Shown in pieces: positions 13,696 to 15,866 of a stretch of 64,000 nucleotides of DNA. The stretch lies in the NCBI GenBank assembly GCA_001602415.1, contig CP012155.1:2536223-2600222 (forward strand), given 5' to 3'. The position numbers and the translations under genes were made by a program. Positions within the stretch are counted from its first letter, which is position 1, and each line of letters starts with the position of its first letter. Origin of the DNA: Bacteroidetes bacterium UKL13-3 (GTDB lineage: Bacteria > Bacteroidota > Bacteroidia > UKL13-3). A model generated the notes under the pieces. It ran no database searches. It saw only the letters and a list, made by a program, of their open reading frames with translations, and was not told the DNA's origin.

Positions 13696-14130
13696 CTAAA
13701 ACACCATTTTGCCGCTGTTAATAACATTAGCCGAAGCTTTAACCAAGAGTTTGTGGCGTTTATGAATAGTTGCCTCAACATGAATCACATTCACGCCTTT
13801 ACGCACTACTTTTGATTCAACTACAATCACATCACCAACAAGAGCAAACGATAGATAATCTAACTGCAAATTAATTGTGGTGAAGAAGTTTTCGTTACCC
13901 AAACTGTAAATGGTCATACCCATCACATCATCAATAAGGGTTGCGGCCATTCCTCCATGAAATGTTTTGGCCGGATTGAGCCATTCTTCCTTTACGGTAA
14001 ATTGAACCCTTAAATGCCCCTCTTCTGCGGCCAACAATATGCCCTCAATCCAGCGACTTACAGCCCCTAAACCATGAAGGTTGGTTGATTGCCCGATACG
14101 CTCTTGTAAATAAAGTAAACTGTTATTCAT
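13696..14130 (-). CDS. PaaI-family hotdog thioesterase
   Basis: 144 residues from Met 14130; the open frame starts at 14175, but MNNSLLYLQERIGQ is the likely N-terminus. The hotdog signature is FHGGMAATLIDDVMGMTIYS, with HGG-N/A-D active-site layout as in PaaI-type acyl-CoA thioesterases. The substrate is unknown. It is divergently oriented to the ATPase gene at 14225, and the palindrome at 14181-14199 lies between the two starts. Confidence 0.88.
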   Translation of the reverse strand: MNNSLLYLQERIGQSTNLHGLGAVSRWIEGILLAAEEGHLRVQFTVKEEWLNPAKTFHGGMAATLIDDVMGMTIYSLGNENFFTTINLQLDYLSFALVGDVIVVESKVVRKGVNVIHVEATIHKRHKLLVKASANVINSGKMVF

Positions 14131-14165: not shown

Positions 14166-14216
14166 AATTGCGCAAAATGCATTACGCAATTTGCGTAATA
14201 CAATTTGTGTAATATA
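14166..14216. promoter_or_regulatory. palindromic repeat upstream of AAA ATPase gene
   Basis: A dense set of TTGCGCAA/TTACGCAA/TTGTGTAAT words. A perfect palindrome, ATTACGCAA-T-TTGCGTAAT, lies at 14181-14199, between the divergent starts at 14130 and 14225. A related copy follows the ATPase gene at 15354-15388. Likely an operator, or the ends of a small mobile unit. Confidence 0.5.
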
Positions 14217-14224
14217 TTTGTGAG

Positions 14225-15352
14225 ATGCAAACCACTGTTAATCCATTTCTTGTATCCGGGTATCATAGCCCCGAATTCTTTTGCGATCGTGTTACAGAAA
14301 CAAAAAAAATCCAATCGGCACTTAGTAATGGGCGAAATATCACCCTTATTTCCTATCGTAGGCTTGGAAAATCTGCCCTTATCGAACACACATTTGCAAC
14401 ATTTCCCAATCGAAAAAAATATCAATTTATTCATATTGATATTTATGCTACGCAAAGTTTGGATGATTTTTTAACTGTATTCGGAAAAGCAGTATTTAAG
14501 AGTAGCTATAGTAAAACGCAAAAAATCGGAAACGCACTTATTCAATTTTTTTCAGGTATTGGTGGCAGTATTACTTACGACTCGGTAACCGGTCAACCGG
14601 CTATTGACATGAAAATACATAACAGTAAAAAAACACCTAAAAGCATTGATGACTTACTCGACTTTTTAGAAAATAGCGGAAAACGCACATATATAGCAAT
14701 TGACGAATTTCAACAAGTATTACAATATCCCGAAAAAAATGTAGAGGCTTTGCTTCGAACCAAAATTCAAAAACTTAAAAACATACAATTTATTTTTTCG
14801 GGTAGCCATAAGCACTTGTTAAGCTCTATGTTTACCGATTATAACCGCCCGTTTTACCAAAGTTCGGATATGTTATACCTTGATAAAATAAATACGGATC
14901 TATACCAAACATTTATTACCTCCCTCTTTAAACAATATAAACGAACCATTCACAAGCACGTGGTAGATGAACTATTGGAGTGGAGTCGCTGTCACACATT
15001 TTATGTTCAAACAATTTGCAACCGTTTGTTTGCAACAAATCAAAAACAAATAGATGAACAGCTATTGCAACATACAATTGCAGAATTACTCAAAGAGAAC
15101 GAAGGAACCTATTACAGTTATCGTAACTTGTTAACGGCTCCCCAATGGAATTTACTATACGCTATTGCCAACGAAGAAATGGCTGTTATGCCAACCTCAT
15201 CATCTTTTTTACGTAAGTACGATTTAGGCAGTGCCAGTACAGTAAACCGATCCATAAAAGCACTGTTGGGAAAAGAAATGATTTTCCAAACACCTGAAGG
15301 ATTTTTGGTTTACGATGTATTTCTATCTCGCTGGCTTGAACAATACAAATAA
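14225..15352 (+). CDS. AAA ATPase of the ATPase_2/PF01637 type with C-terminal winged helix
   Basis: 375 residues. Walker A is the relaxed form ISYRRLGKSALIEH near residues 38-51, and Walker B is KRTYIAIDEFQQVLQY. FIFSGSHKHLLSSMF (sensor-1-like) and the F-Y-Q contact region follow. The C-terminal 80 residues (SFLRKYDLGSASTVNRSIKALLGKEMI) look like a winged helix. Such ATPases are numerous in Bacteroidota and archaea, and their role is mostly unknown; some are linked to mobile elements. Related palindromes sit right before its start and right after its stop, so it may bind them. Function not established. Confidence 0.8.
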   Translation: MQTTVNPFLVSGYHSPEFFCDRVTETKKIQSALSNGRNITLISYRRLGKSALIEHTFATFPNRKKYQFIHIDIYATQSLDDFLTVFGKAVFKSSYSKTQKIGNALIQFFSGIGGSITYDSVTGQPAIDMKIHNSKKTPKSIDDLLDFLENSGKRTYIAIDEFQQVLQYPEKNVEALLRTKIQKLKNIQFIFSGSHKHLLSSMFTDYNRPFYQSSDMLYLDKINTDLYQTFITSLFKQYKRTIHKHVVDELLEWSRCHTFYVQTICNRLFATNQKQIDEQLLQHTIAELLKENEGTYYSYRNLLTAPQWNLLYAIANEEMAVMPTSSSFLRKYDLGSASTVNRSIKALLGKEMIFQTPEGFLVYDVFLSRWLEQYK

Positions 15353-15353
15353 C

Positions 15354-15388
15354 ATTACGCAAAATGCGTAACGCAATTTGCGCAAAAT
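15354..15388. promoter_or_regulatory. second copy of the palindromic repeat, after the ATPase gene
   Basis: It begins 2 bp after the ATPase stop codon. It contains TTACGCA-AAA-TGCGTAA (15355-15371), then CGCAATTTGCGC, and aligns as an imperfect direct repeat with 14169-14201. It ends 20 bp before the ATG of the next gene (15408), so it could be that gene's operator. Confidence 0.5.
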
Positions 15389-15407
15389 TAATTTCCAATT
15401 ATATTTT

Positions 15408-15866
15408 ATGAATATCTATCTATTAAACACAACAATTGAGGGCAAAGAAACTTTGCTGCTATCCATTATTAATCCTGAAATTGATACAGAAGCTAAACTA
15501 ACAGCCAAGGCTATTGTTGGCTTTGTACTCGATACTAATAAGCCGATTAGTACTGAAAACGTAAGACTAAATCCAACATTTATTGACCACTTCCATAAAA
15601 CGATTGTGTTTTTTGCGCAGTTTAATGATGGTATTATTCATTTGGTGGAGCAACAGCAAAACGGATTTGTGTATATAAACGACTTGCGTAATAAAGCGGA
15701 AAAAGAAGTGCGCAAGGAAGATATTATTGGATCGTTTGAAGTAAAAAATGGTGAATTGATTCATAATAGCTACCAACCTAATAGAGCGTATAAAATGATT
15801 ACTGCAGATGGTGCATTTGTACTTCAACCAGAGCTGGAAGCTTTACTCTATTCAACGGCTTATTAG
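15408..15866 (+). CDS. hypothetical protein
   Basis: 152 residues from the ATG at 15408; an upstream TTG at 15378 lies inside the palindromic repeat and is less likely. The protein has no signal peptide or membrane segment and is rich in beta-forming residues (KAIVGFVLDTNKPISTENV, FVYINDLRNKAEKEV). I recognise no family. It follows the AAA ATPase on the same strand and shares the palindromic repeat upstream, which suggests joint control. Confidence 0.6.
   Translation: MNIYLLNTTIEGKETLLLSIINPEIDTEAKLTAKAIVGFVLDTNKPISTENVRLNPTFIDHFHKTIVFFAQFNDGIIHLVEQQQNGFVYINDLRNKAEKEVRKEDIIGSFEVKNGELIHNSYQPNRAYKMITADGAFVLQPELEALLYSTAY

Follow-up and report, generated by a model that had tools for sequence, protein, structure and literature searches.

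The window analysed here, a stretch of 64,000 nucleotides from Bacteroidetes bacterium UKL13-3, carries on its forward strand a gene (14225..15352) for a 375-residue AAA+ ATPase (PF01637/AAA_14) with a C-terminal winged helix, as assigned by Pfam, fold comparison and a structural model. To its left lies a hotdog thioesterase gene on the reverse strand (13696..14130) and to its right, on the forward strand, a gene for a hypothetical protein (15408..15866) that had no Pfam match at E 0.1. A sequence-only reading had placed palindromic blocks directly before the start and directly after the stop of the ATPase gene, and direct reading together with a whole-genome site search confirmed that these blocks are real. 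The upstream palindromic array (14168..14212, forward strand) is made up of three overlapping 17-bp palindromes, TTGCGCAAAATGCATTA, TTACGCAATTTGCGTAA and TAATACAATTTGTGTAA, at 14168-14184, 14182-14198 and 14196-14212, with a 3-bp overlap between successive copies that gives a 14-bp period. The middle copy is a perfect palindrome that extends to 19 bp (14181-14199) when an outer A/T pair is included, around one central base. The downstream array (15355..15385, forward strand) has two overlapping 17-bp palindromes, at 15355-15371 and 15369-15385, built on the same word. This block had been given as 15354-15388; it is present, but its palindromes cover only 15355-15385. The two blocks do align as direct repeats, as had been claimed (35 bp, 86%), and they align as inverted repeats as well (32 bp, 91%).

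The palindrome word is concentrated at this gene. TTRCGCAAWWTGCGYAA, with up to 3 mismatches allowed, matched the window 12 times, whereas shuffled sequence gave 4.4 matches on average and reached 12 in 1 of 100 shuffles; ATTACGCAA matched 5 times against an average of 1.1, a count of 5 being reached in 0 of 100. Throughout the 3,236,529-bp genome, zero-mismatch 17-bp TTRCGCAAWWTGCGYAA sites were found only in the two arrays that flank the ATPase gene. Allowing 1-2 mismatches brought in 18 more positions (25 rows) outside the arrays, compared with 7 rows for a reversed control pattern, and these may reflect either a weak regulon or chance. With zero-mismatch palindromes at the ATPase gene only, a regulon of perfect sites was rejected as an explanation. 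Second genomic copies were likewise rejected, the source genome having a single copy of the ATPase at E 0.01.

The upstream array overlaps a putative promoter of the ATPase gene (14190..14220, forward strand) of the form TTTG-N19-TATATTTG, which we take to be of the Bacteroidota type. By direct reading, TTTG at 14190-14193 is followed after 19 bp by TATATTTG at 14213-14220, so that this putative -7 box ends 4 bp before the ATG at 14225. Inspection by eye revealed a mirroring arrangement inside the downstream array, where a possible promoter of the following gene (15377..15407, forward strand) has the form TTTG-N19-TATATTTT; TATATTTT is one mismatch from TAnnTTTG and abuts the start of that gene, with TTTG 19 bp upstream in the array. 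The following gene may, in this genome, have gained a promoter in this way. Such a promoter would suit the proposal that the palindromes are operators common to the ATPase gene, the thioesterase gene and the following gene, with the ATPase acting as a local regulator of both neighbors. However, both neighbors exist without the ATPase gene and its array in another genome of the same genus (G063), the neighboring genes differ among homologues, and the next gene is convergent in three loci with arrays on both sides (L027, L152 and L168), so the downstream array is not generally a promoter for the next gene. We therefore find no support for shared operators as a general rule and regard this explanation as unlikely.

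The ATPase scored 36.8 bits against PF01637 (ATPase_2), above the Pfam gathering cut-off of 33.2, and also matched PF13173 and PF13401. Its Walker A and B motifs, RRLGKS and AIDEFQQ, are intact, and they are conserved with small changes in A1. In an AlphaFold model (mean pLDDT 88.1) computed from 20 aligned sequences, residues 337-349 form a helix within a C-terminal winged-helix pattern; this predicted recognition helix is encoded at 15233..15271 on the forward strand and contains the covarying residues 338, 339, 341 and 342 discussed below. Foldseek ranked 2qen first and 2fna second, followed by Cdc6/Orc1 bound to origin DNA. Pfam searches of the protein at E 0.1 detected no transposase, recombinase, nuclease or methyltransferase domain and no Cdc6/Orc match, and no Y1/HUH domain was found by Pfam. 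PADLOC returned one weak candidate model, PDC-S01, matching in two stretches (E 3.1e-6, 24.5 bits).

Relatives of the ATPase were present in 14 of 64 genomes in the family search at E 1e-20 (9 of 64 at E 1e-50) and in 47 of 395 genomes in the class search at E 1e-60. A scan of named genomes confirmed at least 585 relatives, and the best 80 of these, taken together with three viral contigs, gave 156 places and, after removal of duplicates, 146 loci. If the arrays belong with the gene, they should recur at PF01637-type homologues, and they do. In the family, the ten loci at 39% identity or more (L001-L009 and L015) all have a palindromic array directly before the start, and the array words vary among the family and class loci (TTTCAC, TTAAAC, TACAAC, TCACAC, TGATAC, TTATAC and TTACGC among them). 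At 72 of 145 loci the 110 nt before the gene contained perfect 6-5-6 palindromes; of 2,322 control windows taken from these loci, 86 did so, and the downstream side had them at 12 of 144 loci. With L102 left out of the word analysis for its short upstream stretch, lag-14 autocorrelation at the homologues' promoters, as expected of 17-bp palindromes with a 14-bp period, was 0.473 versus 0.260 in controls. TAnnTTTG lay within 95 nt upstream at 101 of 144 loci and downstream at 14 of 144; the full TTTG-N18-21-TAnnTTTG arrangement was found within the same distance upstream at 47 loci versus 0 downstream, and the commonest distance from TAnnTTTG to the start was 4 bp. Across the loci compared, the palindromic array before the ATPase gene is a family trait, and clades have their own words. 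More distant relatives (L010, L012, L013, L016, L018 and L021; 27-30% identical) have another type of array with TATACCATTTGGTATA-like words. Separately, L329 (a Parabacteroides distasonis plasmid record), L328 and L330 gave two-piece matches with no annotated ATPase gene and are probably broken copies.

The downstream array, by comparison, is a minority feature of the family. At 11 of 144 loci (the window, L002, L022, L027, L028, L089, L095, L104, L143, L152 and L168), both flanks carry a matching array within 95 bp, against 1.1 expected from re-paired loci. Arrays bracket the gene both in the window and in L002 (59% identical), and the words of the two differ; had their ancestor already carried the bracket, the word must have changed on both sides in step, and this would suggest that the downstream array is also read. 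Brackets of matched words raise the possibility that the ATPase recognizes the two arrays as the ends of a transposon-like element, and two further observations could be taken in its favor: L178 has a matching array farther downstream, at +142, and in L152 and L168 the downstream array falls within the shared unit (to +42). The window copy indeed has repeats at both ends, but terminal repeats are not found throughout the family, since a matching array is missing from the first 95 bp downstream at 133 of 144 loci. The ATPase has no nuclease or recombinase domain at E 0.1, and the flank duplications described below vary in length. For these reasons we consider a transposon-like element improbable.

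To identify what reads the palindromes, we compared array words with protein sequences. Of the 146 loci, 63 (including L102) were dropped because they had no word passing the filters, and the 83 aligned proteins with a clean word yielded 66 representatives below 75% identity. Among these representatives, the most informative column for half-site base 4 was residue 338 (z 13.0, the runner-up reaching 5.6), and for base 6 it was residue 342 (z 10.9, the runner-up reaching 4.6). Base 4 was C in 33 of 40 proteins with Ser338 and T in 20 of 24 with Ala338. Base 6 was C in 49 of 52 proteins with Arg342 and in 5 of 5 with Lys342 (54 of 57 together), and T or mixed C/T in 8 of 8 with Thr or Gln342. 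Covariation of recognition helix with operator, the pattern of a winged-helix regulator that binds its own operator, is thereby seen at bases 4 and 6. Residue 339 ranked second for base 2 and residue 341 second for bases 1 and 3, where the top columns lay outside the winged helix (residue 60 for base 2, residue 174 for bases 1 and 3), as did that for base 5 (residue 269). Top columns this far from the DNA indicate that kinship adds to the signal, and the covariation, as measured on these alignments, is therefore partly kinship.

We examined this further using independent pairs on a tree made from the ATPase part alone, with L064 left out. At residue 338, 3.9 of 5 pairs changed in the same direction, 0 in the opposite direction and 1.1 were unchanged; the figures were 2.0 of 2 in the same direction at residue 342 and 1 of 1 at residue 339, numbers that are few and not significant. 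At residue 341 the single pair was unchanged (0 same). Among the control columns listed, residue 192 gave 1.9 same of 4, residue 243 gave 0.9 of 6 and residue 252 gave 0.3 of 8. A held-out set of 16 loci was reduced to 10 by dropping L298, which is identical to a training protein, and by dropping by eye L326, L328, L329, L330 and L332, which had no clean palindrome (some with misplaced starts). This set fits the rule for residue 342: the one remaining locus with Arg342 had C at base 6 (1 of 1), and of the nine without Arg or Lys342, seven had no C, one was mixed (L297) and one had C (L304). At base 4, C was found in 6 of the 10 loci, all of which have Ser338 and none Ala338. Given that clades have words of their own and that residues 338 and 342 track bases 4 and 6, it is very probable that the palindromes are read by the ATPase whose gene they adjoin. 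The suggestion that its winged helix could bind them is supported by covariation with the predicted recognition helix. A terminator or RNA reading of the palindromes is disfavored because the word tracks that helix.

We next asked whether array and gene move as a unit. If the ATPase gene was acquired, relatives should retain an empty site, and one was found in G063, where an 86-bp spacer without an ATPase gene is all that separates the thioesterase gene (80% identical) from the gene for the hypothetical protein (71%). The ATPase that G063 itself encodes is 40% identical and lies on a different contig; the spacers of G063 and the window are too diverged to place the exact insertion point. Flanks were then compared for 120 pairs of loci with at least 68% protein identity, of which 21 were dropped for short flanks and 99 had 1 kb on each side. 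Flanking homology was absent in 72 of the 99 pairs, a count that involves 43 loci, in pairs that are not independent, and that covers the ATPase only. In the pairs without common flanks, the DNA match ended at a median of -55 relative to the start (quartiles -65 and -10) and -4 relative to the stop. Common flanks were lacking in 1 of 6 pairs at 90-100% identity, 9 of 17 at 80-90%, 21 of 28 at 75-80% and 41 of 48 at 68-75%.

In genus g22, four loci have flanking blocks in one order, and the unit occupies three gaps of one neighborhood in the same orientation. The order is B, A, unit, C, E in L111; B, unit, A in L118, with C and E not found in the flank; B, C, unit, E in L112, with A not found; and B, unit, E in L115. 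Similar shifts of the unit were observed between L153 and L154 and between L093 and L101. The blocks, rather than the unit, may have moved in g22. At another g22 site, no clean empty site was obtained, as the right flank of L092 had no match in the rest of the 45 genomes and matched only a second place in its own. This site, represented by 20 stretches, had the ATPase gene in 8, was cut by a contig end in 1, retained a 3' ATPase remnant in 1 (L286) and was without the gene in 10, one of which (L292) ends right after the left gene. Since the unit is present in some g22 genomes and absent in others, with a remnant in L286, inheritance with loss occurs too, and at this site the unit is, as far as the stretches indicate, largely inherited, with losses. 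By eye, short word-like array remnants were seen at two of the sites without the ATPase gene, L293 and L295; these are possibly scars of lost units.

These comparisons support the view that the array and the gene, about 1.2 kb together, behave as a moving unit. Of the earlier proposal of a small acquired or mobile unit, flank loss and the g22 gaps thus support the part that concerns array plus gene, while the bracket as its defined ends, found in 11 of 144 loci, is not supported as a general rule. The principal alternative is an ordinary autoregulated gene subject to normal horizontal transfer and passive rearrangement, in which the array is an operator and the downstream copy a local duplication. 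The overlap of array and promoter, the scarcity of the downstream copy and the inheritance with losses at one g22 site all fit such a gene. Most pairs are 68-80% identical, a range in which slow divergence can account for lost synteny, so much of the flank divergence is expected under it. Less easily explained are the 9 of 17 pairs that lack a common flank at 80-90% identity, the unit in three gaps of one neighborhood and the excess of matched words on both sides (11 loci versus 1.1 expected). We give this alternative a little less than an even chance.

The borders of the unit carry additional marks. In 14 of 242 tests, covering 13 loci, protein sequence of a neighbor reappeared beyond the unit, compared with 7 of 672 tests around other genes. 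Among the 14, the recurrence falls partly in the array at L028 and L178 and may reflect paralogues or repeats at L135, L137 (two tests), L142 and L177. Four recurrences, of 29-51 codons, were clear: the first 38 codons of the neighbor in L198, the first 51 in L126, the last 49 in L032, where the neighbor is presumably an HsdR-like gene, and the last 29 in L002. At L159, the first cas1 codons were seen by eye before the unit. Direct DNA repeats across the unit were found at 23 of 141 loci versus 22 of 804 controls; the arrays themselves account for 11 of the 23, and in the window copy only the arrays recur. Part of a published account (PMC3031569) describes the insertion of restriction-modification units with long, variable target duplication, and the border marks seen here resemble such insertion. 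Tandem duplication with later deletion would leave much the same marks.

We also considered the genomic setting, using 138 loci (8 of the 146 were dropped) and 125 proteins drawn at random from 242 immediate neighbors, with those above 700 aa left out. Cas1 accounted for 6 of the 125, and a Cas1-cluster protein lay within three ORFs of the ATPase gene at 10 of 138 loci, which does not amount to a consistent location in cas operons; among the PADLOC matches listed for the 125 neighbors (25 of 144 rows), all were Cas1 models. In 7 of the 9 loci listed, cas9 precedes and cas1 follows the ATPase gene, in type II CRISPR loci, the Cas cluster names resting on one Pfam-tested member each. A CRISPR-associated accessory ATPase could produce this pattern. 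However, the other neighbor families listed (25 of 144) are unrelated, with 1-3 members each and many metabolic, and the three window neighbors tested included no cas genes, so we judge this role highly improbable. The Cas1-cluster protein is the next ORF in L079, L080, L089, L095, L158 and L159 and is nearby in L139, L026, L027 and L024; in variants, the ATPase gene precedes cas9 (L024), adjoins cas2 (L026) or stands on the opposite side of cas1 (L027). One further protein cluster lies within 2 ORFs of the unit in L163 (7149-7802), L079, L155 and L159; we take it to be REP-associated transposase-like, and its tested member had no Pfam match. A phage origin of the ATPase was rejected, as IMG/VR yielded no relative with a single-protein query and three with an alignment query. 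A plasmid origin was rejected as well: 19 plasmid records had matches, all below 60% identity and all predicted to be non-mobilizable, and the annotated plasmid members of the family are named ATP-binding protein or hypothetical protein.

Taken together, these data make it likely that the locus holds a self-contained, horizontally moving AAA+ gene unit with a palindrome array that it reads itself and without a transposase. The probability given to this explanation overlaps that of the ordinary autoregulated gene because the self-operator part is common to both. Against it stand, besides the kinship in the covariation and the fit at base 4 in the held-out set (6 of 10), the 18 imperfect sites elsewhere in the genome. 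Sequence comparison establishes how far the unit extends, that its presence is patchy and that it occupies different sites, that homologues have 14-bp-period arrays and that word covaries with helix; autoregulation of a mobile AAA+ gene is probable. In the proposed mechanism, the unit would run from 14168 to 15352 (about 1.2 kb), extended in the window to 15385, and would comprise the AAA+ ATPase with its C-terminal winged helix and a tandem palindrome array overlapping its promoter. The ATPase would read the array through recognition-helix residues around 338-342, and binding would repress or tune the promoter of the gene itself, which would let an incoming copy set its own expression with no cross-reaction with resident relatives. 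The ATP state may modulate binding to the array, and the downstream array may be a second binding site carried by some clades. Movement would proceed without an encoded transposase, by host recombination, either as insertion with long target duplication or as tandem duplication followed by deletion. Should this hold, the unit is a candidate for the mobility of a single gene that needs no transposase, open to bench tests, and it gives a widespread AAA+ family a protein-to-DNA code that can be read in part. A very unlikely variant is a minimal initiator-plus-origin element, in which an AAA+ protein of the Orc1/Cdc6 type is loaded onto its array and drives local re-replication or template switching; if true, it would place new copies, all oriented alike, in adjacent gaps and duplicate neighbor fragments, with no transposase needed.

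Several known systems share features with this unit. Insertion sequences and transposons encode a transposase or recombinase, neither of which was detected here at E 0.1. REP-associated tyrosine transposases (RAYTs, in REPtrons) likewise adjoin palindromes, but they combine a Y1/HUH transposase with dispersed REPs, whereas the window ATPase has no Y1/HUH domain and its zero-mismatch palindromes occur at this gene only and are not scattered. Some restriction-modification units carry their own regulators. These too are small mobile gene units, and their target duplications are long and variable, as parts of PMC3031569 describe, a pattern that the border marks seen here may share; the window unit, however, is one gene in which no methyltransferase or nuclease domain was found. 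The best matches in both sequence and fold are PF01637 archaeal-type ATPases (PDB 2qen, PABY2304, and 2fna, SSO1545), which share the AAA+ core and overall fold and, unlike the window ATPase, are archaeal; at the level of titles and abstracts, a literature search found no description of self-operator arrays or unit mobility in PF01637 ATPases. Orc1/Cdc6 initiators (2qby and 2v1u) similarly combine an AAA+ module with a winged helix, theirs bound to repeat DNA, and here the likeness is one of fold only, with no family-level sequence match. In these systems the initiator lies near its own gene, a layout that resembles that of the window ATPase and its array.
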